Notes under the pieces: generated by a model
What the model was told of the DNA's origin: nothing
Seen by the model: the letters and a program-made list of their open reading frames with translations, nothing else
Database searches by the model: none
DNA from: a virus
IMG/VR virus record: IMGVR_UViG_3300005647_000013
Span: 1-36,372 of that record
DNA: 36,372 nt
Direction: 5' to 3' (one strand)
Translations under genes and position numbers: made by a program
Part shown: positions 21,001 through 34,820 of the stretch, piece by piece
Position numbering within the stretch: position 1 is the first letter of the stretch
Layout of the letters: the number at the start of each line of letters is the position of its first letter

Positions 21001-21459
21001 ATGTATCAATCAACAAAAATAAAAGACGGTTATAGTACTACTTTCAGGCAATGGAGAGCAGAAAAGACTCATTGTCGTTTCTTACATGGTTATGGGACTT
21101 CTGTAAAATTTACATTTCAAGGCCAATTAGATCCTAGAAATTGGGTGTTTGATTTCGGAGGCTTTAAAAGGGCAAAATGCCTGATAGATGGAGTAAGCCC
21201 AGACGAATGGTTAAGTTGGTTACTAGATCATACTACGATTATAGCAGAAGATGACCCAGCATTAGAGCAATTCCTAGATCTAGATTCCATGGGAATAATT
21301 CAATTGAGAATAGTAGAAGATACTGGAGCAGAAAGATTTGCAGAATTTATAGGAAATCACATAGCGGCTTGGGTAGACGCCGAAACTGGGGGAAGGGTGA
21401 GACTAGTTTCATGTGAATTCAGAGAACACGAAAAAAATTCAGCAACGTATTTCTTATAA
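21001..21459 (+). CDS. queD: 6-carboxytetrahydropterin synthase QueD-like protein
   Basis: QueD converts dihydroneopterin triphosphate to 6-carboxytetrahydropterin, the second step to preQ0. The 152 residues match the variant PTPS branch with TTFRQWRAEKTHCRFLHGYG, then NWVFDFGGFK, LDHTTIIAEDDP, AERFAEFI and a C-terminal CEFREHEKNSATY. The Cys in THCRFLHG corresponds to the catalytic cysteine, and the DH of LDHT and the Glu of CEFREH to the other active-site residues. The usual second zinc His of the LHGHS motif is Tyr here (LHGYG). It begins one base after the phosphoribosyltransferase stop, far from the other preQ0 genes of the window. Confidence 0.82.
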   Translation: MYQSTKIKDGYSTTFRQWRAEKTHCRFLHGYGTSVKFTFQGQLDPRNWVFDFGGFKRAKCLIDGVSPDEWLSWLLDHTTIIAEDDPALEQFLDLDSMGIIQLRIVEDTGAERFAEFIGNHIAAWVDAETGGRVRLVSCEFREHEKNSATYFL

Positions 21460-21463
21460 TATC

Positions 21464-21513
21464 TGCGCATAAGAATGGTCAAAAGGCCTTGTGTGTTAAA
21501 TTTTTGCGCATAA
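21464..21513 (+). repeat. Direct repeat TGCGCATAA (two copies)
   Basis: TGCGCATAA at 21464-21472 and again at 21505-21513, 41 bases apart start to start, in the 82-base gap after queD. Each copy contains the palindrome TGCGCA. The second copy is followed by an A/T-only stretch (AAAAATTTTTAAATTTTTAAA). It might be a protein-binding site; no promoter with the 20-base spacing is seen here. Confidence 0.4.
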
Positions 21514-21541
21514 AAAATTTTTAAATTTTTAAATACAAATT

Positions 21542-21757
21542 ATGAAAAAAACAAATTTATACTGGAAAGTTAAAATAACTAGACTAGTCGAACAAGCAGA
21601 TACTGGAAAGATTAAAAAATCTAATGAAGATTATCTAGTCAATGCCGTCAGTCCAACAGATGCAGAAGCAAAGATTACAGAGATGCTAAGGACCGATGTA
21701 TTTGAATGGTCTGTGACTAGTATTACAGAGACTAAATACCTTAAGATAATTGAGTAG
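21542..21757 (+). CDS. DUF4494-like small protein, 71 aa
   Basis: The sequence pattern LYWKVKITRLVEQADTGKIK, then SNEDYLVNAVSPTDAEAKI and a C-terminal FEWSVTSITETKYLKIIE, follows the layout I recall for DUF4494 (W-x-V-K...G...YLVxAxSxTEAEA), a family found mainly in Bacteroidota and their phages. Its function is unknown. It supports a Bacteroidota host. The stop overlaps the start of the next gene. Confidence 0.6.
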   Translation: MKKTNLYWKVKITRLVEQADTGKIKKSNEDYLVNAVSPTDAEAKITEMLRTDVFEWSVTSITETKYLKIIE

Positions 21758-22775
21758 GACTCTACACATTATTGACACAATATGTCCGTATAATTGGATA
21801 AATTCTGAGTGGAGAGTTATCCAACCACATTTATCGGAAGATCTTCAACTATACGGACTAAAAACAAATCTAATATCAGTTAATCGAGTCATTCCAAATA
21901 GCAATTATTTGCATCGAGTAAATTTTAATAATCTATTAATGGCAAAATTGTTTAAAGAGATCGATAACATTAGATCTGGAGACATTGTATTATTCACAGA
22001 TGCAAGAAATGACATTGCAATGCATCTTCAGGAATATACAAAGTTAAACTCTGTTGACATATTTTCAATCGGAATTTGGAATGACGGAATTTGGAATGTA
22101 ACTGGAATGTATTATAATAGCTTCCAACGTTCTAGGAAAGCGTATGTCGTGAGATATGAGAAGCACTTAGCCAACATATACAATATTAATATAACAACGA
22201 CACAGAAGCACCAAAAAGACTTTACAGGTAAAATATTCAAACCTGCAACCTTAATGAATTTACCATTCGAATATCTAAAGATAGAATATGGTAATGATAA
22301 GTTAATGACTTCTGAAATTGCATTTAATGTAAAATCAAATCCATATACAAAAAATGCATCCCAAAAAATGATAGGCATTTTACAAAAAGAATTAACAGAA
22401 TATAATTTTATAGATTTGCAGCAAATTAAAAATAATTTTTATCTGCAAACTAAATATATTCTTAAATCTGCCATGGCATTAATTAACATGCAAGAATTAA
22501 ATTTAAACCCAAGTGACTATTATCATGCATTATGTTTAGGGGCATTGCCATTAACAATAAAATCTCAGGCATTAATTGACATGGGTATAAATATTGGATG
22601 TAGTCCTAAATTAATAAAACCTCCTTTTATAAATTTTATTAGAAATCGAAAGGAATTTTTAAACACTATTAAATCATATATAGAAAATTATCAAGAAAAT
22701 AAAATTAAGATCTTTAAACAATTTGATCCTCATTATACTAAAGATAATTTCATTTCATTAATAACTAACTTATGA
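21750..22775 (+). CDS. Possible GT-B glycosyltransferase-like protein, 341 aa
   Basis: I recognise this only weakly. The N-terminal half has a Rossmann-like beginning (TLHIIDTICPYNWINSEWRV) and GDIVLFTDARNDI. The C-terminal half has YYHALCLGALPLTIKSQALI, which resembles the xxEAxxxGxxPxI sugar-nucleotide site of GT-B enzymes. There is no signal peptide. The best start is TTG at 21750, which overlaps the previous stop, because no ATG precedes the conserved N-terminal strand. The stop overlaps the clamp-loader ATG by four bases. Two clearer glycosyltransferases lie at 28455 and 29731. It could also be an unrelated phage protein. Confidence 0.55.
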   Translation: MSRTLHIIDTICPYNWINSEWRVIQPHLSEDLQLYGLKTNLISVNRVIPNSNYLHRVNFNNLLMAKLFKEIDNIRSGDIVLFTDARNDIAMHLQEYTKLNSVDIFSIGIWNDGIWNVTGMYYNSFQRSRKAYVVRYEKHLANIYNINITTTQKHQKDFTGKIFKPATLMNLPFEYLKIEYGNDKLMTSEIAFNVKSNPYTKNASQKMIGILQKELTEYNFIDLQQIKNNFYLQTKYILKSAMALINMQELNLNPSDYYHALCLGALPLTIKSQALIDMGINIGCSPKLIKPPFINFIRNRKEFLNTIKSYIENYQENKIKIFKQFDPHYTKDNFISLITNL

Positions 22776-23407
22776 ACAAATTAACTAATTCGTTATGGGC
22801 GGAACGCTATCGTCCAAAAACAATGTCTGAATATATTGGAAACGAAGATATTAAAAAGGCCATAGCAAATTATATTGATAATAATGACATGCCACATTTA
22901 TTGCTACATGCAAGTTCTGGGACTGGAAAAACATCCCTCGCAAAAATTTTAGTATCAGAAATTAATTGCGATCACATTTATATTAATGCTTCAGATGAAA
23001 ATAGTGTAGAAGTTATTAGAAATAAGGTAAAAACATTTGCTTCGAATGTAGGATTTAATGACTGGAAAGTTATAATTCTTGATGAGTGTTTATTAGAAGG
23101 GACGCTAGTAAGTATTCTCAGAGAGGGAAATTATATAAAGGTTCCAATTGAAGAATTAATAGAAGAAACTGACTTAGTAAAAAGTTACAACTTCAAAACA
23201 AATCAAATCGAATGGCAACCATTTTATTTTTGGGATAAAGGAGAACAAGAATTATGGGAAATAGAATTAGAAAATGGAGAAACAGTGAAATGTACTGCTG
23301 AGCATAAATGGCATGTTTACGATGAGAACAATGAAATAAAGGTTGTAAAGACCGATGAATTGCATACGTATGAATCAATAATTTCTCCAGGTACACCGAT
23401 TATTTAA
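22772..23407 (+). CDS. Clamp loader ATPase subunit (gp44/RFC-like), N-terminal half fused to an N-intein
   Basis: This encodes the first 105 residues of an AAA+ clamp-loader ATPase. SLWAERYRPKTMSEYIG is the family's N-terminal signature, LLLHASSGTGKTS (residues about 43-55) is the P-loop, and KVIILDE (99-105) is the start of Walker B. At Cys106 (23087) the sequence changes to an intein N-fragment of 106 residues that ends at the TAA at 23405. The rest of the ATPase is in the gene at 24396. Protein trans-splicing would join VIILDE to CDFLTP, restoring Walker B. The uncleaved N-half has no Walker B aspartate pair plus sensor motifs, so without splicing it could not be active. Confidence 0.93.
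   Translation: MNKLTNSLWAERYRPKTMSEYIGNEDIKKAIANYIDNNDMPHLLLHASSGTGKTSLAKILVSEINCDHIYINASDENSVEVIRNKVKTFASNVGFNDWKVIILDECLLEGTLVSILREGNYIKVPIEELIEETDLVKSYNFKTNQIEWQPFYFWDKGEQELWEIELENGETVKCTAEHKWHVYDENNEIKVVKTDELHTYESIISPGTPII
23087..23404 (+). mobile_element. Split intein, N-terminal fragment (IntN)
   Basis: The fragment starts with Cys (CLLEGTLVSI), has the block A-type opening with a threonine (EGTLVSI), the QIEWQPFYFWDKGEQELWEI linker, and block B ETVKCTAEHKWHVYD with the T-x-x-H motif. It ends after 106 residues, a usual size for a natural N-intein. The stop (TAA, 23405-23407) is the only in-frame stop between it and the endonuclease gene at 23441, which is in the same frame. Confidence 0.92.
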
Positions 23408-23440
23408 TAAGTTTTGCTCAAGCAGAACTATATATTAAAC

Positions 23441-24442
23441 ATGAAAGTACAGGTAAAAAATACATCACCGTTTGTAATATGGAAAGAAAAACTAGCGGCA
23501 GGAATCATTAGTAAAGTTCAATACGATGAACTAGTTTTTGAATATAAAAGAAAATTGTCAATTGCAGCAAAAAGAAATAATTTTGGCGGAGTAGTATACT
23601 TCAAAGAGCACATATGCGAAGATTGCAATAACGGGTATACTGCAAATGCTTGGAATTCAAAATACTGTAAGGAATGTAAAATACTTGTTAAAAAACATGG
23701 TACTATTAAAAAATGTTCTTGTAATCGAGAAGGTAGATTCACAGGAAAATATTGCAAAGAGTGTGTTAAAAATCGAACATGGAACAGAAAACCACAAAGT
23801 GAAGAAACTAAAGATAAGATATCTAAAGCAAAATTGAATTTTTATAAAACATCTGAAGGCAACAAAGTAGCTAAACGGATCGGAAAAAAGAACTCAATTA
23901 AAATGACTGAATTTTACAAAACCGAAAAAGGGCAGGAAAATTTAAAGCAAGTGGCTTTGAAAAATAGCATTACAATGAAAAGGAAAATTGCAAACGGAGA
24001 ATTCTTTCCTCCTATTAGCAATAGTTGGACGCATTGGACATCTATTATATATTTCGATGGTAACGAATTTAAATTTAGAAGTTCTTGGGAGGCATGTTTC
24101 TGGGCTTCAAATAAGCATTTGCTATATGAAAAATTAAGAATTCCATATGTAGATGCAAATGGAAAGTCCCGAACATATATTGCAGATTTTCATGATCTAG
24201 AGAAGAATATACTATTTGAAATAAAACCAAAATCACAATGGCAAAAGCAAAAACATAAAATGCAATCTGTCATAAATTACTGCAAGGACAATGATATAAA
24301 ATTCATATGGGTTAATGAATATAATATACTTGATTATATTGACGAAACAGATTTTAAATTAGAAAAAAATAAAATACAACTTCAAAAATTATACGATGGA
24401 ATTGGAACAAATAAAAATAAAAAGCGTAAAGAAATTAAATAA
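23441..24442 (+). CDS. Free-standing PD-(D/E)XK homing endonuclease between the intein halves
   Basis: The 333-residue protein begins with two zinc-ribbon pairs (CEDCNN...YCKECK and CSCNREG...YCKECV, within about residues 50-110), followed by a NUMOD3-like repeat SEETKDKISKAKLNFYKT and a copy of it (GKKNSIKMTEFYKTEKGQEN). The C-terminal nuclease domain has FRSSWEACFWAS, YIADFHDLEKNILFEIKPKS (D, E and K of the PD-(D/E)XK core) and IKFIWVNEYN. The ATG at 23441 is preferred to a TTG at 23414. The gene sits exactly where a contiguous intein would carry its endonuclease domain, and its 3' end overlaps the C-intein start by 47 bases in another frame. The clamp-loader gene is its probable target. 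Confidence 0.85.
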   Translation: MKVQVKNTSPFVIWKEKLAAGIISKVQYDELVFEYKRKLSIAAKRNNFGGVVYFKEHICEDCNNGYTANAWNSKYCKECKILVKKHGTIKKCSCNREGRFTGKYCKECVKNRTWNRKPQSEETKDKISKAKLNFYKTSEGNKVAKRIGKKNSIKMTEFYKTEKGQENLKQVALKNSITMKRKIANGEFFPPISNSWTHWTSIIYFDGNEFKFRSSWEACFWASNKHLLYEKLRIPYVDANGKSRTYIADFHDLEKNILFEIKPKSQWQKQKHKMQSVINYCKDNDIKFIWVNEYNILDYIDETDFKLEKNKIQLQKLYDGIGTNKNKKRKEIK

Positions 24443-24521
24443 GACTGGTCACGTATACGATATATCTGTAGAGGGAAATCATAACTTCTATATCGGGCAA
24501 AATGAAACGTTAACTCACAAT
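24396..24521 (+). mobile_element. Split intein, C-terminal fragment (IntC)
   Basis: Starts MELEQIKIKSVKKLNKTG, has block F GHVYDISVEGNHNFYI and ends with block G ETLTHN (42 residues), followed by Cys as the +1 residue. Together with IntN it makes a full Hint fold of about 148 residues. The catalytic residues (Cys1, TxxH, HN, Cys+1) are all present. Confidence 0.92.
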
Positions 24522-25130
24522 TGTGATTTTCTAACCCCCAACGCCCAGGCGGCATTGCGTAATGTAATGGAAACTTTTTCAAAGCATTGTAGGTTCATAT
24601 TAACATGTAATTATGTAGAGAAAATAATCGAAGCATTGCAATCTAGATGTGTTTCTTTTAACGTTATACCTCCATCTAAAAAGGAAGTAGCATTGCGAAT
24701 GGTGCAAATACTTAAAGAAGAAAATGTTGAATTCAATAAACAAGATTTGGCTACGCTTGTAAACCAAGGATATCCGGACATTAGGTTGGTTATAAATTTA
24801 CTGCAAACAAATTCAATTGGTGGTAAACTAGCATTGTCAGAAGCCACTAGAATGGAAAGTAATTATCTTTCAAAAGTAGTAACCGAATTGGCATCTAATA
24901 AAAATCCAAAAGATAAATTTAAATCTATTAGACAAATAGTTGCAGATAGTAAAGTTAGGTCTTTTGATGAATTATATTCCTACTTATTTAATAATCTAGA
25001 CCAATATGCTCCAAATAAAATCGCTCCAGTTATTTTAGTTATTGGGAAATATGCATATCAAGACAGTTTATGCATTGACAAGGAATTGAATGCAATGGCA
25101 TTGTTAACCGAATTAATTATGGAAATATGA
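24396..25130 (+). CDS. Clamp loader ATPase subunit, C-intein fused to the C-terminal half
   Basis: After the 42-residue IntC, the extein resumes at Cys43 (24522) with CDFLTPNAQAALRNVMETFS, which completes Walker B and enters the RFC box with the arginine finger (SRC in ALQSRCVSF) and sensor 1 (FILTCNY). The remaining residues form the AAA+ lid and collar. The mature spliced protein would have 105 plus 202, or 307, residues, close to T4 gp44 (319). The ATG lies inside the endonuclease gene's 3' end, so the gene is probably expressed from the same transcript. The stop overlaps the MazG-like gene (ATGA). Confidence 0.93.
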   Translation: MELEQIKIKSVKKLNKTGHVYDISVEGNHNFYIGQNETLTHNCDFLTPNAQAALRNVMETFSKHCRFILTCNYVEKIIEALQSRCVSFNVIPPSKKEVALRMVQILKEENVEFNKQDLATLVNQGYPDIRLVINLLQTNSIGGKLALSEATRMESNYLSKVVTELASNKNPKDKFKSIRQIVADSKVRSFDELYSYLFNNLDQYAPNKIAPVILVIGKYAYQDSLCIDKELNAMALLTELIMEI

Positions 25131-25597
25131 AATTAGGAGATTATGATGTATGGTATCAGCCTTGCAAAAACTGCGGCCACGATACAGGCAAATCAACAAA
25201 ACCAGAAGATGGATTTAAAGCATGTTGGAAATGTGGCCATTCAATTGAAAGAGATTATACTGATCGGGCTTTAAAAGATAAAGAATTAATAAAAAAACTA
25301 ACAAAGATATCAGATGATCAAATATACGCAGGCGCCGTAGAATTATGGGGGCATGACCAACAATTGGATATGGTTCAAGAAGAATGTATAGAATTGGCAT
25401 TGGCAATAAGGAAATATAGGAGAAGTCCTAATAACAAAACTTACGATAATTTATGCGAAGAATTAGCAGATGTCATGATTATGTTATCCCAAGTTGAAGA
25501 AATGGGAAATCTAATAGATGATATAATGCCTCATAAACAATATAAACTAAATCGATTACGAAACAAATTATTAGACAATGGATGGACCTTTGAATAA
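25127..25597 (+). CDS. MazG-like nucleotide pyrophosphohydrolase with N-terminal zinc ribbon
   Basis: Residues about 10-40 carry two CxxC pairs (CKNCGHD, CWKCGHS), a zinc ribbon. The second part has the all-alpha NTP pyrophosphatase motif: QEECIELALAIRK (EExxE, about 84-96) and CEELADVMIMLSQVEEM (ExxD, about 110-126). These enzymes hydrolyse dNTPs or ppGpp-type nucleotides to monophosphates, and phages use them to shape nucleotide pools. The zinc ribbon fused to it is unusual. The start overlaps the clamp-loader stop by four bases. Confidence 0.8.
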   Translation: MKLGDYDVWYQPCKNCGHDTGKSTKPEDGFKACWKCGHSIERDYTDRALKDKELIKKLTKISDDQIYAGAVELWGHDQQLDMVQEECIELALAIRKYRRSPNNKTYDNLCEELADVMIMLSQVEEMGNLIDDIMPHKQYKLNRLRNKLLDNGWTFE

Positions 25598-25838
25598 AGC
25601 AGTATTATCTAAATCTACTGGAGTTACTTGTAAAGAGTGCGATGGTATATTCTTCAAACAAGTTGTGGCACTAAGGACAATTTCTAAATTCGCCTTAGCA
25701 ACTTTGTCAGCGACTCCAATGGACAAACCTGGAAATGTCATGATACCAATACCTATACATTTATGCAATCAATGTGAAACCCCATTGGAAGCAGATATAG
25801 ATGGTTTAATAAACATGGAAGCAGAAACAGGATCATAA
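25578..25838 (+). CDS. Zinc-ribbon protein, 86 aa
   Basis: The protein has two cysteine pairs, CKECDG (residues about 18-23) and CNQCETP (about 63-69), separated by 39 residues, which should hold a zinc ion. Between them is a hydrophobic stretch (VVALRTISKFALATLSATPM). The function is unknown. It overlaps the MazG-like gene by 20 bases and abuts the gp62-like gene, so it belongs to the replication operon and could be a replication or late-transcription factor. Confidence 0.6.
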   Translation: MDGPLNKAVLSKSTGVTCKECDGIFFKQVVALRTISKFALATLSATPMDKPGNVMIPIPIHLCNQCETPLEADIDGLINMEAETGS

Positions 25839-26299
25839 TGGGAGTAATAAAAACTAAATCATTATTTGATCATATTCGAAATCTGTTTACTAAAAAAGTA
25901 AAATGGTCAGATTTATCCGAAGCAGATAGAAAATCGTTTTCTGTATATATGGTTAATAGATTTTTGTCTATGGATATGGAATTAATTGGATTTATCAACA
26001 TGTTGCAGCCATATACAATGCAAACATTAAGTCCGGAAATGGTATACAAACTATATCTAGATCTTTTACCAAAACAAAAAGGATTTTATTCAAAATATAT
26101 TAAAGCTTCTAAGTCTGCTAAATTTAAAGATGATCTAATATCTATGATATCAAGGACTGAAGAAATTAGTAAGACAGAGGCTATAGATATGATGAATATA
26201 TTATTAACATTGAATGGTTTAGACCTAGTTTCAGATTACTTAATTGCATATGGAAAAACTAATTCGGAAATTAAAAAATTATTGAAAATTGAAAAATGA
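25838..26299 (+). CDS. Clamp loader small subunit (T4 gp62-like)
   Basis: The 153-residue all-helical protein has the pattern of gp62: SDLSEADRKSFSVYMVNRFLS at the start (T4 has KDYSKFMVENALSQF), then MELIGFINMLQPYTM, YKLYLDLLPKQKGFYSKYIK (T4 YLMAAVPRGKRYGKW), SMISRTEEISKTEAIDMMNI and NGLDLVSDYLIAYGK at the end. Gp62 binds the gp44 tetramer to form the clamp loader, and this gene lies just downstream of the gp44 homologue with only the MazG-like and zinc-ribbon genes between. Conservation is low, so the call relies on position and layout. Confidence 0.72.
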   Translation: MGVIKTKSLFDHIRNLFTKKVKWSDLSEADRKSFSVYMVNRFLSMDMELIGFINMLQPYTMQTLSPEMVYKLYLDLLPKQKGFYSKYIKASKSAKFKDDLISMISRTEEISKTEAIDMMNILLTLNGLDLVSDYLIAYGKTNSEIKKLLKIEK

Positions 26300-27254
26300 A
26301 CAAACGTGGGTTAGTGGTATTTTCAAATTGGGAATTGCCGGCAAATCTGAAACAGATAACGTAATATCTGCATCGCAAATATCTAAATATAATACTTGTC
26401 CAAAGCAATGGGAGCTTCGATATATTAAAAAGGAAAGACTTGATGGACCATCTATTCATTTAGTATTTGGAAATGCAATGCATGAAGTACTTCAAGAGTG
26501 GCTAAAAATTATGTACACAAAAACAGTAAAAGCCTCGATGGCATTGCCAATAGAAGATATGCTTAAGGCACGGATACGAGAACTGTACCTAGATGATTTT
26601 AAAAAATATAAAAAGCATTTTTCTACGCCAGAACAATTAGCTGAATTTTATACCGATGGAGTAGAGATACTTAAATTTATAAAATCAAATCGGGGCAAGT
26701 ATTTCACGACAAAAAAGGTGCAATTAATTGGTATAGAGTTACCAATAATGTGGTCTCCATCAGAAGAATTTGAAAATTTAAAATTTATGGGATTTTTAGA
26801 TCTCGTATTTTACGATGAAAATGCCGACGAATATCATATAATCGATATTAAGACAAGTACACGAGGATGGTCAGAAAAAGACAAAAAGAATAAAGATAAA
26901 TCAGATCAAATATTACTGTATAAACGGTATATGTCTGCTCAATATGGTGTTCCCGAAGCGAAAATAAAAGTGTCATTTTTTATTGTTAGAAGGAAAATAA
27001 ATCCAGACAGTATGTGGCCAATTAAAAGGGTGCAAGAATTCAAGCCATCATCAGGGAAACCATCAGTTAATAAATCAGAAAAAAAGTTATTAAAGTTTAT
27101 TAACAAGGCATTTAATCCAGATGGTTCATATAATAAAGACATAGAATATCCTGCTATAAAAGGAGTAAATTCATATAATTGTACATTTTGCGCATATAAA
27201 GATAGAGAAGATCTTTGCCCAAAAAATAAAAGAGTAACGGCATGTTTTACGTAG
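26289..27254 (+). CDS. Cas4/RecB-like exonuclease with likely Fe-S cluster
   Basis: This 321-residue protein has the Cas4/AddB-type arrangement. An N-terminal Cys appears in ASQISKYNTCPKQWELRY, a nuclease core lies at EYHIIDIKTSTRG (Asp, then DIKT, Asp-x-Lys) after the acidic GFLDLVFYDENADEY, and three Cys close the protein, NCTFCAYKDREDLCP (C-x2-C-x8-C). These four Cys hold a 4Fe-4S cluster in Cas4-like exonucleases, which resect DNA ends. In phages such genes serve recombination-dependent replication or DNA degradation. The best start is the TTG at 26289, because the next in-frame ATG would remove the first Cys; it overlaps the gp62-like stop by 11 bases. Confidence 0.82.
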   Translation: MKNEQTWVSGIFKLGIAGKSETDNVISASQISKYNTCPKQWELRYIKKERLDGPSIHLVFGNAMHEVLQEWLKIMYTKTVKASMALPIEDMLKARIRELYLDDFKKYKKHFSTPEQLAEFYTDGVEILKFIKSNRGKYFTTKKVQLIGIELPIMWSPSEEFENLKFMGFLDLVFYDENADEYHIIDIKTSTRGWSEKDKKNKDKSDQILLYKRYMSAQYGVPEAKIKVSFFIVRRKINPDSMWPIKRVQEFKPSSGKPSVNKSEKKLLKFINKAFNPDGSYNKDIEYPAIKGVNSYNCTFCAYKDREDLCPKNKRVTACFT

Positions 27255-27640
27255 GAGTATTCGGAGATCCAGATTATATACAAAAGTCTAAAGTTATAAA
27301 GACAATGGCGTCGTTACATGATAAATTTAAATCAAATGTAACAATATTATCGGGAGGTGCAACTGGACCCGACGAAGTGATTAAAAAATATGCATTGCAT
27401 TTTGGCATGACATATGTCGAGTATAATCCTTCTTGGACTGGAAGAAAACTATATTCGGCTGAAAAAGATTCTTATTATGGAAAGGCGTATCATATTAGTC
27501 AGGAATTCGATAGGTATAAAAAACTAATAAAAAAAGCAGAAAAAGTAATTATTTTTGGTAATTATAATAACAGACCGGCATTAAAATATGCGCATGGTTT
27601 ATTGCAAAAATTTAAAAAGGCACATGTTGTCATCAATTAA
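27242..27640 (+). CDS. SLOG-domain protein (YspA-like)
   Basis: The 132-residue protein begins with FYVGVFGDPDYIQ and has the glycine-rich loop LSGGATGPDEVIKKYALHFG (residues about 37-56), then EYNPSWTG and a C-terminal KAEKVIIFGNYNNRPALKYA, the pattern of the small Rossmann SLOG family that includes YspA (DUF2493-like). It probably binds a nucleotide or a nucleotide-like ligand. It overlaps the Cas4-like gene by 13 bases and is followed 10 bases later by the metalloprotease lipoprotein. It is distant in sequence from the SLOG protein at 6534. Confidence 0.72.
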   Translation: MFYVGVFGDPDYIQKSKVIKTMASLHDKFKSNVTILSGGATGPDEVIKKYALHFGMTYVEYNPSWTGRKLYSAEKDSYYGKAYHISQEFDRYKKLIKKAEKVIIFGNYNNRPALKYAHGLLQKFKKAHVVIN

Positions 27641-27650
27641 AAGTAACCTT

Positions 27651-28451
27651 ATGAAAAAATTATTTATAATATGTTTAATATTAATAATCTCTGGATGTAA
27701 AACAGATAATACATCTAAATTGCCAACTGAGGAATTGCCATTAGAATGTGTAGGAAACGAATGCAACCCTGAAATAATCGACAGTTTAATTAATGAGGAT
27801 ATAAGCATTGACAAATCTCCAATTTTTAATATTAAATATCATATTGGCGTTTCAAATGACACTGTCAAACTAAACGAAAATGATATAGAGTTATTGATCG
27901 CTTCTCACAATTCTCTTAATGAAGCATATAAAGGATCAATAATTTTTAGTATGATTGACTCTATACATTATTTTAATTCTGTATACAGTTTAGATGAAAT
28001 GTACGACGATTATTTATACGGTGGAAAGAATCCTATTAAAACATACTATGGAAAACTATTAGCTGATTACAGTGATAGTACATCTATAAATATATTTGTC
28101 ATGACAACTAACAAAAAGAATGGGCAAACCTTATTAGGATTTACGCCAACGCTAAAGAAGCCAGAATTATATCCATTATTTTCTCCAGAATATAATGCAA
28201 TTGCTATTTCATTTGAGGGCCTGTTTCAATATGAAGTAGGATCTTCCTTAATCCATGAAATAGGGCATTGGTTAGGCCTTGATCACCCTTGGCAATATCC
28301 AGACTCAACAAAAGTAGACATGGGACTAGATTCTAAATTAGAATATTGTATTAATCATATGAATTATAGTTGCTTCGTTGACAGATTTACAGATGAACAG
28401 TTAAATTTTCAAACAAAATTTGCAATTAAATTCAGGAACTATTTAAACTAA
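27651..28451 (+). CDS. Secreted lipoprotein metalloprotease (M43 pappalysin-like)
   Basis: The protein begins with a lipoprotein signal peptide, MKKLFIICLILIISGC, and a lipobox ISGC, so it should be exported and lipidated. The C-terminal part has SSLIHEIGHWLGLDHPW (HExxHxxGxxH, zinc ligands and catalytic Glu) and, about 40 residues on, CINHMNYSCFVDRFTDEQLN, whose Met corresponds to the Met-turn of M43 pappalysins (family pattern N-Y-M-(D/N)-Y...C...F-T-x-x-Q). The 266 residues include an acidic linker after the signal. A phage-encoded surface protease could process a host or competitor protein; that is inference. In-frame codons from 27588 precede the signal peptide and would break it. Confidence 0.82.
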   Translation: MKKLFIICLILIISGCKTDNTSKLPTEELPLECVGNECNPEIIDSLINEDISIDKSPIFNIKYHIGVSNDTVKLNENDIELLIASHNSLNEAYKGSIIFSMIDSIHYFNSVYSLDEMYDDYLYGGKNPIKTYYGKLLADYSDSTSINIFVMTTNKKNGQTLLGFTPTLKKPELYPLFSPEYNAIAISFEGLFQYEVGSSLIHEIGHWLGLDHPWQYPDSTKVDMGLDSKLEYCINHMNYSCFVDRFTDEQLNFQTKFAIKFRNYLN

Positions 28452-28454
28452 ATA

Positions 28455-29738
28455 ATGAAGAAAAAGAAGATCTTATTATTAGGAGACAACATAACCAAAT
28501 TTACAGGCGTAGGAATAATTGGTAATTCCATAGTAAAAGGAACAGTTGATTCGTTTGATTGGATACAAATTGCTGGAGCATCCACAACTGATATAAATAC
28601 TAGAATAGATGTTAGCAGTGATTACAAAGAAAAGACATCAGATGCAAATGTAATATTATATCCAGTTAAAGACTATGGTAATCAAGATTACTTGCGATTT
28701 GTAATAGAACAAGAAAAACCAGACGCAATATTGCATATAACAGATCCAAGATATTGGATGTGGATGTACGACATGGAATATGAAATACATCAGCATTATA
28801 AAATTCCAATTGTTTATTACGCCATATGGGATAATTATCCAGCTCCGAAATGGAATTATCCTTTATATGAATCTTCAGATGTAATAATTTCAATAAGCAA
28901 ACTTTCTGATGAAATTCATAAAGAGGTAACTAAGCAATGTAAAAATCAGCCATCATTGCAATATGTACCTCATGGAGTAGATCCGGACATTTTTTATCCA
29001 ATCAATTCTACTGATTCTGAATATGAAGAAGTGCTTAGAATTAAGGATGAATTTTCCCAAAGACATGGGGCAAAGAAAATATTTTTCTGGAATAACGTTA
29101 ATATGAGCCGAAAACGCCCAGCAGATGTTATGCGAGCATATGCAGTATTCTGTAGAAGAAATAAAGAATATTTAAAAAATTCATGCCTAGTGATGCATAC
29201 TTCTATAGTCTCTCAAGCTGGAACCGATTTATTAACTGTTAAGCGACATTTATTTGATGATTGTAACATAATTTTTAGTACAGAAAAAATAAGTCCTGAG
29301 CTATTAAATTATTATTATAACATTTCAGCCGCAAGTATAAACATATCTCATTCGGAAGGATTTGGGTTGTCGAATTTAGAATCATTAATGGCAGGATGTC
29401 CAACAATAACCCATCAAACAGGTGGTTTAAAAGATCAGTCAATTACAGAAGCAACATACAAAGTAGAAACGTCACATAAAGTACTTTCTGGATCATTGGC
29501 AACTCCATATATATACCAAGACTATTGCAGCGTAGAAGACGTGGCAAACGGTTTAGAATGGGCATATAACATTACTCCTGAACAAAGGCAAGAGTTAAGT
29601 AAAGAATCTCGAAGACGAATGATAAAAAATGGATTTACGTCCAATCAAATGGCATATAAAATTGAATCAATACTTCTTAGCACATTGCAGACGTGGAAAC
29701 CTGCTAAACCATATCAAATAATATCAATAAATGATTAA
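28455..29738 (+). CDS. Glycosyltransferase, GT-B fold (GT4-like)
   Basis: A 427-residue retaining-type GT-B enzyme. The N-terminal half opens with KKILLLGDNITKFTGVG, and YVPHGVDPDIFYP marks the domain boundary (family P-x-G-V-D...F). The C-terminal half has ISHSEGFGLSNLESLMAGCP (EGFG...E...G-x-P), the nucleotide-sugar site. It has no signal or membrane segment, so it works in the cytoplasm. It begins four bases after the protease and overlaps the next glycosyltransferase by eight bases, so the two probably act in sequence. Targets might be phage DNA, a phage protein, or a host glycan; the sequence does not decide. Confidence 0.85.
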   Translation: MKKKKILLLGDNITKFTGVGIIGNSIVKGTVDSFDWIQIAGASTTDINTRIDVSSDYKEKTSDANVILYPVKDYGNQDYLRFVIEQEKPDAILHITDPRYWMWMYDMEYEIHQHYKIPIVYYAIWDNYPAPKWNYPLYESSDVIISISKLSDEIHKEVTKQCKNQPSLQYVPHGVDPDIFYPINSTDSEYEEVLRIKDEFSQRHGAKKIFFWNNVNMSRKRPADVMRAYAVFCRRNKEYLKNSCLVMHTSIVSQAGTDLLTVKRHLFDDCNIIFSTEKISPELLNYYYNISAASINISHSEGFGLSNLESLMAGCPTITHQTGGLKDQSITEATYKVETSHKVLSGSLATPYIYQDYCSVEDVANGLEWAYNITPEQRQELSKESRRRMIKNGFTSNQMAYKIESILLSTLQTWKPAKPYQIISIND

Positions 29739-30876
29739 ATTTCCTATCATATTAGAAGGCCCGTTATATTCTCAAAGTGGATATGGCGAAAGGTTTAGGT
29801 TTTTAGTACAGGACATTCAAGCTTTTTGTGAAGATGTAAGTGTATATCCAACTAAATGGGGGAAAACCTTAAATAATGCAAAATTTGAAAATGTAGATAT
29901 TATAAGTGAGATTCCAAATGAACAAAAGTTTATCTATATTCAATGTACGGTACCTAATGAATTTAAACCAAAGTCAACCTACTATAATATAGGAGTAACG
30001 GCTGGCATTGAAACTGACACATATCCTTCTAACTGGTGGCGTCCAATGAATTCAATGGATATGATATTGGTTAGTAGTACGCATTCTAAAAATATTTTAA
30101 GTACTAATAATCCCAATGATAATATTCATGTATTACCTGAAAGGGTCAATGTACAAACAAATGATAAAACTGTATTTAAATTAAAAAATGATTTTAATTT
30201 TTTATGTATGGGAGCATGGCTTCCAGGTACAATGGGTAACGACAGAAAAAACATACCCTTTACAGTCCAATTGTTTTACGCAGCATTTGCCAATCATCCT
30301 AACCCACCATCATTATTATTAAAAACCGATCAGGGAACTTTTTCTAAAATAGAAGCATTTAGGATTAAGGAACTAATGAATAATATTAGAATAAATATGT
30401 TATCTCAAGATGGCATAAACACACTACCAGAAGTAAATATATTACATGGAAGATTATCATACGAACAAATGTCAAATTTAATGCTTCATAATAATATTAA
30501 AGCCTATATTACATTAAGTCACGGCGAAGGGTTTGGTAGACATACTGCTGAATTTTTATCTACTGGAAAACCAATCATAGCATCTAATTGGTCTGGCCAT
30601 AAGGATTTTATAAAAGCCAAGAAGCATTGTAATTATTTAGTTTCTGGAGAATTAAAAACAGTAGACGCTTCGGTAGTAAACAAATATATCGTTCCTCACG
30701 CAAAGTGGTATTACCCAGATCCAAACGATGCCATTGTTGCCATGCAAAGTATATATGAAGATTATACTAACTATTTAAGTGGTTCGGGAGAAGTTAATAT
30801 TAAGAAATTTAATTCATTACGAGGCAACAAATCAATTAACAAGTTAAAATCATTTATTAAAACAGCAATGAAATGA
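29731..30876 (+). CDS. Glycosyltransferase, GT-B fold
   Basis: This 381-residue protein opens with IILEGPLYSQSGYGERFRFL (GPLxxxSGYG, common in phage GT-B enzymes), has the middle block GITAGIETDTY-like GVTAGIETDTYPSNWW, and the C-terminal donor site LSHGEGFGRHTAEFLSTGKP (HGEGFG...E...G-x-P). It pairs with the enzyme at 28455 and is followed by a small gene whose ATG overlaps its stop. It has no signal peptide. The overlap arrangement suggests that the two enzymes are made together, perhaps for a two-step glycan. Confidence 0.85.
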   Translation: MIKFPIILEGPLYSQSGYGERFRFLVQDIQAFCEDVSVYPTKWGKTLNNAKFENVDIISEIPNEQKFIYIQCTVPNEFKPKSTYYNIGVTAGIETDTYPSNWWRPMNSMDMILVSSTHSKNILSTNNPNDNIHVLPERVNVQTNDKTVFKLKNDFNFLCMGAWLPGTMGNDRKNIPFTVQLFYAAFANHPNPPSLLLKTDQGTFSKIEAFRIKELMNNIRINMLSQDGINTLPEVNILHGRLSYEQMSNLMLHNNIKAYITLSHGEGFGRHTAEFLSTGKPIIASNWSGHKDFIKAKKHCNYLVSGELKTVDASVVNKYIVPHAKWYYPDPNDAIVAMQSIYEDYTNYLSGSGEVNIKKFNSLRGNKSINKLKSFIKTAMK

Positions 30877-31253
30877 AATTAGAATACGACAGAAAAAATC
30901 CAATAGATAATGAATTAACTGTTATATCAGAAACTGAAGTTTTTTTGGGCCGTGAAGTAGATATACATGTGTGCATGAAGCATGGTCTATTATCATTTGG
31001 AACATCAATAATTCCAGATCTCGAAATAAAACCCCCATATCTTAAACTTAAGAAAATTGACGTAGAAGGTTTCATATGGTATCCGTTTTATAATGCATCT
31101 CATGACGGCAAAGTTAGATTAGAATTAGATTATAATAACATGTGGCGGGTTATAACATCTGGAGATACATTAAGTACTTTCAAAGAATTCGAACCAGCCT
31201 TTGATTATTATAACGAGGTACTTAATGAGTATAATCAAAAAATTAACCAATGA
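30873..31253 (+). CDS. Hypothetical protein, 126 aa
   Basis: Not recognised. The sequence suggests a beta-rich soluble protein. Features are the CMKHGLLSF segment near residue 34, a PPYLKLKKIDVEGFIWYPFY stretch (about 54-73) and an acidic C-terminus. It overlaps the glycosyltransferase stop in an ATGA arrangement and the next gene by four bases, so it is part of the same coupled run. Confidence 0.6.
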   Translation: MKLEYDRKNPIDNELTVISETEVFLGREVDIHVCMKHGLLSFGTSIIPDLEIKPPYLKLKKIDVEGFIWYPFYNASHDGKVRLELDYNNMWRVITSGDTLSTFKEFEPAFDYYNEVLNEYNQKINQ

Positions 31254-31522
31254 ATCAATTCAAAATAAAAGCAAAGCCTCAGGCAAATGGTTTGTTTGGT
31301 ACACCAATGGAATGTGTTTTCATTGACAAGGTGATTTTTGGCAATAATAATCTTTTACAGTCAGCGATTATAATTGGAATCTCAGAACGATATCCCAAAG
31401 AACCATTTACAATAATTAATAGTACTTTGGAAGGCTTTACTGTTCGATTGAACAAAAGAATTTTTGTAATAAAATATAAAAACTACTCCTTTAGTGGAGA
31501 TACAATTACATGGCTTAAATAA
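31250..31522 (+). CDS. Hypothetical protein, 90 aa
   Basis: Unrecognised. The alternating hydrophobic pattern (ECVFIDKVIFG, FTVRLNKRIFVIKYKNYSF) suggests a small beta barrel. The ATG overlaps the preceding stop, and the next gene starts six bases after its own stop. Confidence 0.55.
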   Translation: MNQFKIKAKPQANGLFGTPMECVFIDKVIFGNNNLLQSAIIIGISERYPKEPFTIINSTLEGFTVRLNKRIFVIKYKNYSFSGDTITWLK

Positions 31523-31528
31523 AATATT

Positions 31529-31780
31529 ATGAAATATTATATTCTTTTCTCCGGAGACACTGAACAAGACACTATTAATGACGTTAATCAAATTGGAGAT
31601 GTCTCCTTTAATCAATTATGGCCTGCGGCTGGATATAAAATAATGATGAAAATGATATCCGATGCTAATGTCGAATATTTAAATAACTGTAAAATTGTCA
31701 ATGAGAAGGGACAATATTATTCTCCTGAAGAATTTATGGATTTAATGATTAAAAATAAAACCAAAGTCAAACAGATTTAA
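31529..31780 (+). CDS. Hypothetical protein, 83 aa
   Basis: The start MKYYILFSGDTEQDTINDVN, with FSGDTE..T.ND.NQIG, is a pattern I have seen in small phage proteins of unknown function. The C-terminal half is helical (FMDLMIKNKTKV). No catalytic motif is visible. Confidence 0.58.
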   Translation: MKYYILFSGDTEQDTINDVNQIGDVSFNQLWPAAGYKIMMKMISDANVEYLNNCKIVNEKGQYYSPEEFMDLMIKNKTKVKQI

Positions 31781-31827
31781 TCGATTGAAATAATTTTATA
31801 TATGTATATGCAAACTAGGAAAATGGA

Positions 31828-32043
31828 ATGAAACAAGTCTCGGCAAGAGTTAGAAAATTTCAAGAATTTGTATTAGTAACAATTGTATATGGTATATTAG
31901 ACACAGATGATTTACAGTCATTGACTTCTTTCATATTACATGTAGATCCTACAGATACAAATTTGATTAATGATGAAATAGAAACATACTTCAAGGAGAA
32001 TGCAGAAAAATACGGCCTCTTATTCGATGAACAGTCAGTCTGA
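31828..32043 (+). CDS. Hypothetical protein, 71 aa
   Basis: Unrecognised. The first 27 residues are basic and amphipathic (MKQVSARVRKFQEFVLVTIV), the rest acidic. It follows a 47-base gap with AT-rich sequence but without a promoter of the 20-base-spacer kind. It overlaps the next gene by 17 bases. Confidence 0.5.
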   Translation: MKQVSARVRKFQEFVLVTIVYGILDTDDLQSLTSFILHVDPTDTNLINDEIETYFKENAEKYGLLFDEQSV

Positions 32044-32290
32044 TTGTAATAACTGTAAAGATCAGAAGTACGAAGTTTATATAAATACTTCTGAAAAACC
32101 TGATAATTTATATGACGTCATGAGGATGATTGGAATAGGAACTTCACCAATGCATACTAAATTATTAATAGATCATTATAAAAAAGAAGAATATACTATA
32201 TTATACATTGGAAATGAACAGGAAGCTAGCCCAATTTTAAGGGATTTATTATATCATGGAATATCTTATGCAAAAATAAGAAAATTATGA
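32027..32290 (+). CDS. Hypothetical protein, 87 aa
   Basis: Unrecognised. The ATG at 32027 is preferred to one 27 bases upstream because it gives a natural start, MNSQSDCNNCKDQKYEVYIN, with a CxxC pair. The middle and C-terminal parts look like an alpha/beta fold (YTILYIGNEQE, LRDLLYHGISYAKI). Its stop overlaps the membrane-protein gene start. Confidence 0.5.
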   Translation: MNSQSDCNNCKDQKYEVYINTSEKPDNLYDVMRMIGIGTSPMHTKLLIDHYKKEEYTILYIGNEQEASPILRDLLYHGISYAKIRKL

Positions 32291-32622
32291 AAACATTATT
32301 TTGGATAACATTGAATATTGGAATGGTAGAATTAATAGTTAGTTCGTATTTATTTATGCCAATTCGAGAATTTTTTAATCATACAACTAATTCATACACA
32401 AAAAAATGGCACATCTTTAAATTTAAAATAGATGCATTTATGTATAACTTATTAAATTGCCGGATATGTACTGCATTTTGGACTGGATTAATGCTATCTA
32501 TATTCGTATGGAGTCCAATATTATATTATTACAATATCAACTTCGGTCCCATTGATGGGATATTTTCAATTGGAGTTGTATTTTTAACGGAGAAACTTAT
32601 ATATGCCACTTTGGAAAAATAG
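32287..32622 (+). CDS. Membrane protein, 111 aa
   Basis: Three hydrophobic segments: residues about 4-24 (LFWITLNIGMVELIVSSYLF), about 62-82 (FWTGLMLSIFVWSPILYYY) and about 91-107 (IFSIGVVFLTEKLIYA). The sequence NCRICTAFWTGL just before the second one resembles small DUF1360-like membrane proteins with a C-x2-C-T-x-F-W pattern. It should sit in the inner membrane. It overlaps the neighbours by four and 20 bases. Confidence 0.6.
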   Translation: MKTLFWITLNIGMVELIVSSYLFMPIREFFNHTTNSYTKKWHIFKFKIDAFMYNLLNCRICTAFWTGLMLSIFVWSPILYYYNINFGPIDGIFSIGVVFLTEKLIYATLEK

Positions 32623-33139
32623 GGCTTTAAATTTAACTGAACAAGATTGTAGGTATGCAATGTTGCATTCAAAGTCAAATGCAGGCGCAGCAAGGTTCAT
32701 AGGGTGCGAAGTAAGAACCTATAAATCATACGCTCAACGATATGTCGATAAAGAATCTGGTAAAACATTGTGGGATTTACATGCTAATCCTACTGGTAAA
32801 GGTGTCACTCGAAGATTTTTAAAGGGCAATAATCCCAAATTTAGAAAGACACCAATGACCGAAATCCTAGAGGGATTGCATCCAGCATATAATCGAAAAA
32901 AATTGCAAGATCGGTTGATTAGAGAAGCAATTTTAGAAGAGGTATGTTCGTGTTGCAAATTCGAAGAAAGAAGAGTAACTGATTATAAAGTTCCTTTAGT
33001 ATTATGTTGGATTGATGGAGACAAAACTAATCACAAACGAGAAAATTTAGAATTAATGTGTTTCAATTGTTATTTTTTACAATATGATGACATACACCAT
33101 AGGGCAGGAGTTGCAAGATTTAAAGTCAGTACCAAATAG
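32603..33139 (+). CDS. HNH-fold-like zinc protein, 178 aa
   Basis: The C-terminal half has the order of an HNH/zinc-ribbon module: CSCCKF (residues about 114-119), then VPLVLCWIDGDKTNHKRENL and ELMCFNCYFLQYDD. This follows the common HNH pattern (L-x-(H/C)-x-D-G-D...N...N-L...C-x-x-C), but the first His of the catalytic centre is Cys here, so nuclease activity is doubtful. The N-terminal half contains AARFIGCEVRTYKSYAQRYV, which resembles a short helix-turn-helix. It could be a DNA-binding phage protein. The ATG overlaps the membrane-protein gene by 20 bases. Confidence 0.62.
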   Translation: MPLWKNRALNLTEQDCRYAMLHSKSNAGAARFIGCEVRTYKSYAQRYVDKESGKTLWDLHANPTGKGVTRRFLKGNNPKFRKTPMTEILEGLHPAYNRKKLQDRLIREAILEEVCSCCKFEERRVTDYKVPLVLCWIDGDKTNHKRENLELMCFNCYFLQYDDIHHRAGVARFKVSTK

Positions 33140-33326
33140 TTATAATAAAGAATTAATTGAACAATGGATATTGTCGCAATCTAAAGAAAACTTAGAATCG
33201 AATCCAATTTATAAATTGGCATGGATGGGAGTAGTTGCACAATATGAACTATATATAAAAAATACTTATTGTAAAAAGAATCACGACGTGTTAACTAAAA
33301 TACTAGAAATAAATAAAGAATTATGA
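33084..33326 (+). CDS. Hypothetical protein, 80 aa
   Basis: Unrecognised helical protein (MMTYTIGQELQDLKSVPNSY). It overlaps the previous gene by 56 bases, a long overlap, but its stop shares the ATGA arrangement with the next small gene, which supports it. No domain is visible. Confidence 0.5.
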   Translation: MMTYTIGQELQDLKSVPNSYNKELIEQWILSQSKENLESNPIYKLAWMGVVAQYELYIKNTYCKKNHDVLTKILEINKEL

Positions 33327-33472
33327 GTATTAAAGAAACAGAATTGTATACTTCCTATGGACAAATGTATTATGAATATCAGGCCCTTCAAGAGAAACTA
33401 GAAGTACTTGAACAGAATATAATAGAATGTAGAAATGCAATCAGCGAAATTAAATTAATCAAAACCAAATAA
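33323..33472 (+). CDS. Small coiled-coil protein, 49 aa
   Basis: The product is MSIKETELYTSYGQMYYEYQ and onward, with heptad-like ALQEKLEVLEQNIIECRNAI, a probable short coiled coil. The ATG overlaps the preceding stop (ATGA). Its role is unknown; small coiled-coil proteins in phages often bind partners. Confidence 0.5.
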   Translation: MSIKETELYTSYGQMYYEYQALQEKLEVLEQNIIECRNAISEIKLIKTK

Positions 33473-33476
33473 AATT

Positions 33477-33647
33477 ATGATAACGTTATATGTACCAATA
33501 GACCAAGTTACCAAAGAGACACCAAATCAGTGGTCTTTTGCGCGAAGGGAAGGATGGGCCCAAATCCAAGTTTCTCAGGAAACGTTTAAGACTTGGCAAA
33601 GTAAAAGTGAATCCGTAAATTCAGCAAAAAAATTATTGCATGGATAG
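33477..33647 (+). CDS. Small hypothetical protein, 56 aa
   Basis: The product begins MITLYVPIDQVTKETPNQWS and has no recognised domain. It starts four bases after the coiled-coil gene and ends at the promoter region of the metallophosphatase. Confidence 0.48.
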   Translation: MITLYVPIDQVTKETPNQWSFARREGWAQIQVSQETFKTWQSKSESVNSAKKLLHG

Positions 33648-33678
33648 TTGAAATTGTCAATTATTTTATTTACCTTTA
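33647..33678 (+). promoter_or_regulatory. Probable Bacteroidota-type promoter before the metallophosphatase
   Basis: GTTG at 33647-33650, 20 bases, TACCTTTA at 33671-33678. The -33 and -7 boxes are weaker than in other copies, but the spacer holds GTCAATTATTTTAT (33656-33669), the same motif as in the promoters at 1514, 8604 and 18738, at the same position. The metallophosphatase ATG is five bases further on. Confidence 0.5.
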
Positions 33679-33683
33679 CTTAA

Positions 33684-34394
33684 ATGAAAACTTTATTACT
33701 TGGAGACACTCATGGAAGAGATGTATGGAAACGTATAATCAAAGAAGAAACTCCAGACAAAGTCATTTTTGTTGGAGACTATTTTGATTCATTTGATATT
33801 AAAGCTGTTGATCAGTTAAATAATTTCAATGAAATAGTCAAATATCAAAGGACTTCTGATATAGAAGTTATCCTATTAATAGGAAATCATGACCACCATT
33901 ATTTAGTAGATCAGCGGTATGAGGGATATCAACCAACTTTTAGATGGGACTTTGAATTTGCTATACGAGATAATTTACGTAATATGTCAATAGCACACAT
34001 TCATGATAATTTGTTAATTAGCCACGCAGGAATTAGTGAAAAGTGGTTAGATAATAATTTATTGGGGTGGGACATTGAAACATTAGAAGATTCGATAAAT
34101 GATTTATATAGGTATCGACCAAATAAATTCGATTTTGTTGGATTTTCTCCAACTGGAAATGATCCTATTTCAGGCCCACTTTGGATTAGACCACCATCTT
34201 TAATGAGGGCAAACAAAAATGGAATATTAAAGAAGAATTTTATACAGATTTTTGGTCATTCTTATAGCCAATCTATATGTATAAAGCATTTTGAAAAGGC
34301 TACTGGGTCTAAATATTTAAATATAGATTCTATTGAAAATGGTTGGTATGTTATATACGAACACAATAAATTAACAATTAAACAATTAAACTAA
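33684..34394 (+). CDS. Calcineurin-like metallophosphatase
   Basis: The family motifs are all visible in order: LLGDTHGRD (residues about 5-13), VGDYFDSF (about 31-38), LIGNHDHHY (about 65-73), LISHAG (about 111-116) and IFGHSYSQ (about 189-196). This is the full dinuclear metal site of the calcineurin superfamily, whose phage members act as protein phosphatases or nucleotide/polynucleotide phosphatases. The 236-residue length fits the phage protein phosphatase type, such as lambda PP. It has its own promoter and is followed by an unknown gene whose ATG shares one base with its TAA. The substrate cannot be told. Confidence 0.86.
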   Translation: MKTLLLGDTHGRDVWKRIIKEETPDKVIFVGDYFDSFDIKAVDQLNNFNEIVKYQRTSDIEVILLIGNHDHHYLVDQRYEGYQPTFRWDFEFAIRDNLRNMSIAHIHDNLLISHAGISEKWLDNNLLGWDIETLEDSINDLYRYRPNKFDFVGFSPTGNDPISGPLWIRPPSLMRANKNGILKKNFIQIFGHSYSQSICIKHFEKATGSKYLNIDSIENGWYVIYEHNKLTIKQLN

Positions 34395-34708
34395 TGACAG
34401 CTAAATTTGCATACGAATATTTAATGCATCGGTTAAAACTTGAACAATCAAATCAAAATAATGCATACAATGACCGAGATATAAATTTTATAAAATCTTA
34501 TATTGAACATGTACATCCCTCTAAATCTGTTAGAGAAGATGATATAGTAAGATCAATGCAAATGAATTCTCCAAAGTTAGTTCTGCATTATTTTAGAAAT
34601 ATGCATTTACACATCGCAAATTTATTCAATATACAAGTATTAACTAGTCAGTCTCAAGATTTGTTTGGAAATAGCTACGAAAAAACTATTAATTATACAT
34701 TAAATTAA
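34394..34708 (+). CDS. Hypothetical protein, 104 aa
   Basis: Unrecognised helical protein with several His and Asn (MTAKFAYEYLMHRLKLEQSN). It begins in a TAATG overlap with the phosphatase stop, so the two are translationally coupled. No metal or catalytic motif is clear. Confidence 0.52.
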   Translation: MTAKFAYEYLMHRLKLEQSNQNNAYNDRDINFIKSYIEHVHPSKSVREDDIVRSMQMNSPKLVLHYFRNMHLHIANLFNIQVLTSQSQDLFGNSYEKTINYTLN

Positions 34709-34725
34709 AAATAATATCAAATTAA

Positions 34726-34757
34726 TTTGGAAAATAGTAAATTTAATTGTATATTTA
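34726..34757 (+). promoter_or_regulatory. Bacteroidota-type promoter upstream of the tRNA genes
   Basis: TTTG at 34726-34729, 20 bases, TATATTTA at 34750-34757. The spacer is different from the GTSAAW group. It lies 63 bases before tRNA-Thr, so it probably drives the tRNA region. Confidence 0.65.
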
Positions 34758-34820
34758 ACTTATGAAAGGATATATACTTTAAATGCCTTAAATTAAGTTC
34801 ATTGACATGTTGGTTAAAAT

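Follow-up and report, generated by a model that had tools for sequence, protein, structure and literature searches.

The defining trait of the M43B pappalysins is a long stretch, containing Cys/Asp-Thr-Pro, between the third histidine of the zinc site and the Met-turn. Mirolysin and ulilysin, both placed in M43B, have the metzincin fold, a HExxHxxGxxH zinc site and a Met-turn with Tyr at Met+2, and are preceded by a plain signal. The latency of mirolysin is ascribed to a cysteine switch at Cys23, just past the signal peptide (PMC8259862). Some Bacteroidota lipoproteins are placed on the cell surface, and the published export signals, K-(D/E)2, Q-A-(D/E)2, SDDDD and SDDFE, follow the lipid-bearing cysteine (PMC5080379).

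A metzincin has also been linked to phage lysis. In the Listeria Mtz/Tim system, as reported, an exported metzincin of phage origin acts in the envelope, where it cleaves its lipoprotein partner, which makes the cells more sensitive to lysis by phage; with both proteins, phage-driven lysis and the release of virions rise about 5-fold, an effect that for lysis is absent with an inactive enzyme (PMC8235301). This precedent makes a lysis role possible for such proteases, although the Listeria system, likened to ours by description only, differs in having a Gram-positive host, a separate lipoprotein partner (Tim) and a temperate-switch locus. Here we describe P0001, a protease encoded in a virus record of 36,372 bases (the window). 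Like mirolysin and ulilysin it has a HExxHxxGxxH site, Tyr at Met+2 and, as modeled, a metzincin fold, but it carries a lipobox in place of the plain signal, stops after the catalytic domain and is encoded by a phage.

Results

Sequence features of P0001

P0001, of 266 amino acids, is read from an ATG-to-stop open reading frame on the + strand (window positions 27651-28451). The frame continues open in the 5' direction as far as an ATG at 27588, and 27651 was chosen as the start because the signal peptide then sits at the N-terminus. Read by eye against the lipobox consensus, a short hydrophobic stretch is followed by I13-S14-G15-C16, giving a lipoprotein signal peptide (27651-27698) in which the lipid-anchor Cys16 is encoded at 27696-27698; this lipobox predicts a membrane anchor, and on its account a role for P0001 as a virion protein was set aside. 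Residues 17-52 (27699-27806) form a linker and putative latency prosegment that holds Cys33 and Cys38, and the metzincin catalytic domain, as delimited by an AlphaFold model and VIA-align, extends from about residue 53 to the C-terminus at residue 266 (27807-28448). The zinc site, HEIGHWLGLDH, occupies residues 202-212 (28254-28286) and the Met-turn, NHMNY, residues 235-239 (28353-28367), as located from the sequence and from alignments. Accordingly, the lipoprotein signal peptide and the complete HExxHxxGxxH site with matching Met-turn, both of which had been noticed in the original prediction, were borne out.

Conservation was evaluated in two alignments, one of P0001 with 11 compact bacterial relatives (A1, 12 rows) and one of 29 rows that includes 26 longer viral M43 proteins (A3). 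His202, His206, His212, Glu203, Met237 and Tyr239 were invariant in both (12/12 and 29/29 rows), while the column of Gly209 held glycine in 10 of the 12 rows of A1 and 19 of the 29 of A3. Two A1 rows are imperfect: that of the closest relative (L161) begins one codon too late and runs into the stop, and that of L130 is partial. Searched for at the DNA level, the zinc motif has a single occurrence in the window, and 100 dinucleotide-shuffled versions contained no copy; a chance origin of the motif was set aside on this control. The signal with lipobox, the complete catalytic set, the family relation and the location in a phage can all be read from the sequence, and P0001 is very probably an exported metzincin.

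Predicted structure

An AlphaFold model of P0001 built from a 29-row alignment had a mean pLDDT of 72.5 and a pTM of 0.73, compared with a mean pLDDT of 36.1 for the single-sequence prediction; pLDDT was below 50 at residues 16-38, 218-221 and 223-232. When the model was compared with solved structures by VIA-align, the top 17 rows were all mirolysin, ulilysin or PAPP-A/A2 (Z 13.4-15.2), led by promirolysin (Z 15.2, rmsd 3.6, 208 residues aligned), with proulilysin at 14.4 and PAPP-A at 14.3. The mirolysin and ulilysin rows spanned Z 13.9-15.2, and mature mirolysin (6r7w) reached Z 14.3 over model residues 53-266. Snake-venom metzincins came next at Z 13.3, level with the lower pappalysin rows. 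Foldseek placed PAPP-A first; below it, mirolysin (rank 10) and ulilysin (rank 12) were interspersed among ADAM and venom enzymes, and in BFVD giant-virus ulilysin-like proteins were on top, with weaker matches to phage proteins. On the model, P0001 would have a metzincin fold with mirolysin and ulilysin as its closest solved structures.

Family assignment and bacterial relatives

The M43 type given in the original prediction was supported as an M43-like identity. The Pfam M43 (PF05572) score of P0001 itself, 16.7 bits, is below the cut-off of 23, and its M43-like identity rests on its relatives and fold because of this. L161, its nearest full-length relative, scores 28.5 bits and is over the cut-off, and all but one of the 12 A1 rows reach E 0.01 or better against Pfam M43 (best 7.2e-11), P0001 being among those that do. 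Comparison of profile A1 with a profile of viral M43 proteins (A2, described below) gave an hhalign probability of 97.1 (E 5.8e-11); P0001 alone against A2 gave 89.5 (E 2e-6) over residues 82-218. The top matches of a profile search were mirolysin (E 2.5e-4) and ulilysin (E 3.9e-4), for which reason identity as a serralysin (NCBIfam E 3.7e-4, below cut-off; PDB sequence E 0.056) was not preferred. The TIGR03952 (BF0631) proteins are zinc-dependent metalloproteinase lipoproteins, as is P0001, which matches that model over the zinc region (E 5.3e-5); membership in the metzin_BF0631 family failed, at 22.4 bits where 208.1 is required. PHROGs returned three weak matches, all at the N-terminus (E 0.094-0.26).

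A homologue in a Saprospiraceae MAG led the search to bacterial relatives. In one Bacteroidota order, 12 of the 396 genomes searched have close homologues (E 1.6e-18 or better), at 13 places in all; at E 0.001 the number rose to 85 of the 396, the remainder being weaker and mostly short zinc-site matches. A phylum-wide search of 395 genomes gave matches beyond E 1e-15 in three only (G046, G033 and G002), all of them also in the order sample, and from this distribution we infer that the compact family is centered on that order. The best bacterial homologue, L161 in genome G292, is 37% identical to P0001 over residues 7-265 (E 1.7e-34), and the nearest relatives as a whole are 37-44% identical and keep the catalytic residues. 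Gene neighbourhoods were examined at 2 of the 13 bacterial places, and the neighbours of L161 are housekeeping-type genes as judged by eye. In a tree, P0001 and 14 bacterial rows formed one group (support 97/95) with the position of P0001 among them unresolved; 8 of the 19 inner branches were open, and two long branches (L173, a second viral compact form, and L145) make the separate placement of L173 unsure. The gene was probably acquired from bacteria.

The compact Bacteroidota proteins resemble P0001 in size (about 230-270 aa), in the conserved Met-turn and FT..QL region and, in L161, in the lipobox. The distance from the third histidine to the Met is 25 residues in P0001 and 24-25 in 9 of the 11 bacterial rows, the exceptions being L130 (34) and L145 (8); in A3, the 26 longer viral M43 proteins have 44-64. 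A Cys/Asp-Thr-Pro-type stretch before the Met-turn is seen in viral M43 members, and P0001 has none. Because the long stretch ahead of the Met-turn is absent, we do not class P0001 as a typical M43B protein and call it M43-like, of a compact type; the compact family is a small M43-like variant that has bacterial members. Among the bacterial sequences, three ORFs (L165, 4660-5955, - strand; L169, 4258-5499, - strand; L170, 3769-5031, + strand) join a peptide methionine sulfoxide reductase (PF01625) to a compact M43-like domain in a single frame, with the M43 score of L170 slightly under the cut-off, and may represent a fusion or an internal start.

Localization and latency

Residues +2 to +6 after Cys16 are KTDNT, which matches none of the four export signals taken from the published account (PMC5080379). 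Because these motifs are absent after Cys16, P0001 is more likely to face the periplasm, although the published consensuses may not be those of Saprospiraceae. The predicted anchoring of the protein in the host envelope thus has the ISGC16 signal in its favor, and a surface position is less likely.

A cysteine switch like that of mirolysin (PMC8259862) is possible in P0001 too, in which a prosegment cysteine would perhaps confer latency. The column of Cys33, where the model is poor, holds cysteine in 27 of the 29 A3 rows and in 2 of the 12 A1 rows (P0001 and L161 only), and an N-terminal cysteine is absent in 7 of the 11 bacterial A1 rows, one of which is truncated. If the putative switch exists, the anchor would lie in the removable prosegment, so that activation would free the enzyme.

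Genomic location of the protease gene

Positions 19651-36372 of the window, which include the protease gene, are 100% identical to a stretch of a 188,518-bp IMG/VR contig, and the gene therefore lies inside a 188.5-kb viral contig; identity at this level means that the two records are the same virus population and not an independent lineage. The GC content of the gene (0.292) and its GC3 (0.236) lie within the spread seen in 18 other genes of the window (0.277-0.359 for GC and 0.207-0.321 for GC3). Upstream on the same strand are an exonuclease gene (26289-27254; phrog_69, E 4.6e-24), of the PD-(D/E)XK type by analogy with annotated relatives, and a gene for a YAcAr/SLOG-family protein (27242-27640; Pfam PF10686), which overlaps the exonuclease gene by 13 bases and stops 10 bases 5' of the protease start. 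A glycosyltransferase gene, also on that strand (28455-29738; phrog_2170, E 4.9e-18), starts 3 bases past the protease stop and is followed by a second (29731-30876, + strand; phrog_2170, Glycos_transf_1).

A nuclease-glycosyltransferase neighbourhood that has no protease there is annotated in Flavobacterium phage immuto and Microcystis phage Mel-JY01, and was recognized by eye in contig L005. Since related phages keep the neighbourhood without the protease, we take the protease to be an insertion of this phage lineage. Megablast of window positions 13000-36372 against isolated phages gave no match, and searches for closer phages with the first glycosyltransferase and the exonuclease returned only the same contig and one distant contig.

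Other genes of the window encode a ribonucleotide reductase, a pyrimidine-dimer glycosylase, a clamp loader and a myo-inositol-1-phosphate synthase (9347-10471; PF01658, E 4e-24), and 7-deazaguanine genes, a split DNA polymerase and a sliding clamp were recognized by eye from translations, as were a helicase and a UvsX-like recombinase adjoining the window. Several further features were observed. Intein-like insertions were seen by eye in two proteins, one of them QueE-like and the other the clamp loader ATPase, and endonuclease-like ORFs between the two parts of the DNA polymerase (13313-15139 and 17805-18719), the regions concerned being window positions 3057-4913, 13313-18719 and 22772-25130. 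Two small ORFs had no Pfam match, one with HEMVH, possibly a second small zinc protein (7458-7898), and one that is a second small predicted lipoprotein (5170-5700; LNSC, by eye). The last 150 bases of the window (36223-36372) match a second contig site (L277, 9827-9976) at 87%, perhaps a repeated endonuclease gene, and the 188.5-kb contig also encodes an SPFH/Band 7 lipoprotein (L277, 1709-2527, - strand; PF01145, phrog_200).

Longer M43 proteases in other phages

Seeds were obtained from a motif scan of IMG/VR that gave at least 120 stretches, for which motifs were listed for all fetched loci and 8 loci were examined closely, and a profile from 4 seed proteins was then used to search for longer viral M43 loci. 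Sixty-six IMG/VR loci (L210-L275, the A2 group) encode a longer M43 protease; their phage context is indicated, where checked, by neighbours that recur across loci and, in L210, by a terminase gene. Pappalysin-like proteases had been considered unexpected in phage; that view did not hold, and the proposed search of phages for relatives found these 66 loci and, in addition, contig L173, which encodes a compact lipoprotein M43 protease at 36.8 bits, over the Pfam cut-off. Clustering at 80% identity gave 34 A2 representatives, of which 32 are 331-699 aa long and two are fragments; by a simple pattern, 33 of the 34 have no lipobox. A2 proteases such as L210, L227 and L263 share with P0001 the M43 catalytic domain and the phage origin, and most representatives also have an N-terminal signal-like stretch and a cysteine, but they are longer, nearly all without a lipobox, and often located near a holin gene. 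L210 itself scores 65.3 bits for Pfam M43 and has a dockerin-like tail match under the cut-off.

A frequent A2 gene order is a long unknown gene, a holin-cluster gene, a small membrane protein, the M43 protease, and an amidase or DUF5675 gene. The main holin cluster is represented by a protein that matches phrog_3427 (holin) at E 2.6e-22 and a second type by one that matches phrog_2359 (holin) at E 5.7e-12, and the amidase cluster corresponds to phrog_822; neighbour genes were taken as predicted by a greedy ORF caller, and each cluster was assigned to holin or amidase by testing a single representative. The 66 loci fell into 47 clusters at 95% identity, and the 37 with at least 2 genes on each side of the protease were counted against 67 control genes located at least 5 genes away in the same loci. 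A holin-cluster gene was present within 3 genes in 26 of the 37 dereplicated loci and for 4 of the 67 controls (Fisher p 5.7e-12, a value that overstates independence, as these are related viruses). When amidase and DUF5675 genes were included, DUF5675 being scored as lysis-like despite its unknown function, the counts were 29/37 and 10/67; amidase or DUF5675 alone accounted for 12 of the 37 loci, and 8 had neither kind of gene within 3 genes. In some cassettes there are also small proteins that weakly resemble spanins (E 0.0026), and the protease may consequently be dispensable for outer-membrane rupture. The A2 M43 metzincins sit in probable lysis cassettes of uncultured phages.

The compact forms in viral contigs are two, P0001 and L173. 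The L173 protease precedes an HNH-like gene (by eye), a terminase and a portal gene, with small genes upstream, one of them weakly spanin-like (E 0.0064). Neither compact protease had a match among 50,697 phage records, and three longer M43 queries matched a single record in that set, the same 7.6-kb fecal record without annotation, so that M43 proteases are nearly invisible among isolated phages. We found no report of M43 proteases in phage lysis cassettes among titles and abstract starts of open-licence PMC articles, which is not proof of absence. M43-like domains were also seen in long proteins with repeat-rich tails in viral contigs (L034, 3834-6395, - strand; L101, 1098-2903 and 2990-4891, + strand), the L034 protein adjoining other long ORFs.

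Discussion

The explanation that we favor, tentatively and at somewhat less than even confidence, is that P0001 is an exported, lipid-anchored zinc endopeptidase of bacterial origin that cleaves envelope proteins and assists lysis. A phage lineage would have taken the gene from a Bacteroidota chromosome, in the order of the Saprospiraceae MAG, and P0001 would be made together with its tightly packed neighbours and go to the outer membrane, facing the periplasm. There it may be kept latent by the prosegment cysteine, and a cut in the prosegment may release it from its anchor. The active enzyme would cleave host envelope proteins, and the most likely benefit would be an envelope weakened late in infection, making lysis and release of progeny more complete.

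A contribution of P0001 to lysis, considered separately, is also a little short of an even chance. The 188.5-kb phage encodes a membrane-anchored M23 peptidase (PF01551; anchor by eye) and a cell-wall hydrolase with a signal-like N-terminus (PF07486; signal by eye). The protease gene is located between the exonuclease/YAcAr pair and the glycosyltransferases and not in a lysis cassette, and the nearest recognized wall enzyme (M23) is ∼13 kb away in the approximately 58.6 kb of the contig that were read. The lysis-linked A2 proteases, from which a role in lysis is extended to P0001 by analogy, are a different, longer subgroup than P0001, which counts against a direct transfer of their role. Among the roles first proposed, help with lysis nevertheless has the best circumstantial support, from the A2 holin neighbourhoods, while receptor editing was weakened by the KTDNT sequence, which fits none of the export signals of PMC5080379.

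That second role, in which P0001 edits host surface proteins (receptor shaving) and, with the downstream glycosyltransferases, blocks superinfection or stops progeny from sticking to debris, appears rather unlikely. The 3-base gap to the first glycosyltransferase gene is consistent with it, phage glycosyltransferases may alter surface glycans, and some Bacteroidota lipoproteins do reach the surface, as the cited source describes; one of the weak PHROGs matches is to the Cor superinfection-exclusion family (E 0.26), over residues 1-19, which are the signal peptide only. Against this, KTDNT fits none of the export signals given in that source, and related phages retain the nuclease-glycosyltransferase neighbourhood without a protease there. 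It is quite unlikely that P0001 is a passenger acquired from the host that does nothing in the lytic cycle or instead benefits host nutrition in long infections: the rarity and patchiness of bacterial homologues (12/396 genomes) and the finding of only two compact forms in viral contigs would fit such a gene, but the frame is intact, the catalytic residues are kept at 37-44% identity to the nearest relatives, and the gene is tightly packed in its row. Inactivation of an envelope-located host defence or stress protein in early or mid infection is suggested by the placement of the gene among replication and nucleotide-metabolism genes, and not structural ones, in the annotated part of the window; with no target indicated, we regard it as distinctly improbable, and we know of no phage protease that inactivates an envelope-located host defence. 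Contamination by a host gene, for which the original prediction had allowed, is unlikely because the gene is inside the 188.5-kb viral contig and matches it in composition, and the joining of a host gene to phage sequence during assembly is hardly credible with phage-type composition and phage-type genes on either side, even though the homologues of P0001 are mostly bacterial and the two viral records, 100% identical where compared, are perhaps not independent assemblies.

The reading of P0001 as an envelope protease that assists lysis raises a broader possibility, which we consider doubtful, that exported M43 metzincins are an undescribed class of lysis proteins of Bacteroidota phages, with P0001 and L173 as separately acquired, anchored cysteine-switch zymogens. 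If this is true, M43 metzincins would cut the protein links of the envelope alongside holin and endolysin. The lysis-linked phage M43 proteases are a larger lead than P0001 itself, and their gene neighbourhoods suggest that in some phages rupture of the host cell is assisted by such proteases. To our knowledge, breach of the outer membrane by Bacteroidota phages has been little studied, and a protease that recurs close to holin and amidase genes of uncultured phages makes a concrete candidate for a contributor to this step.
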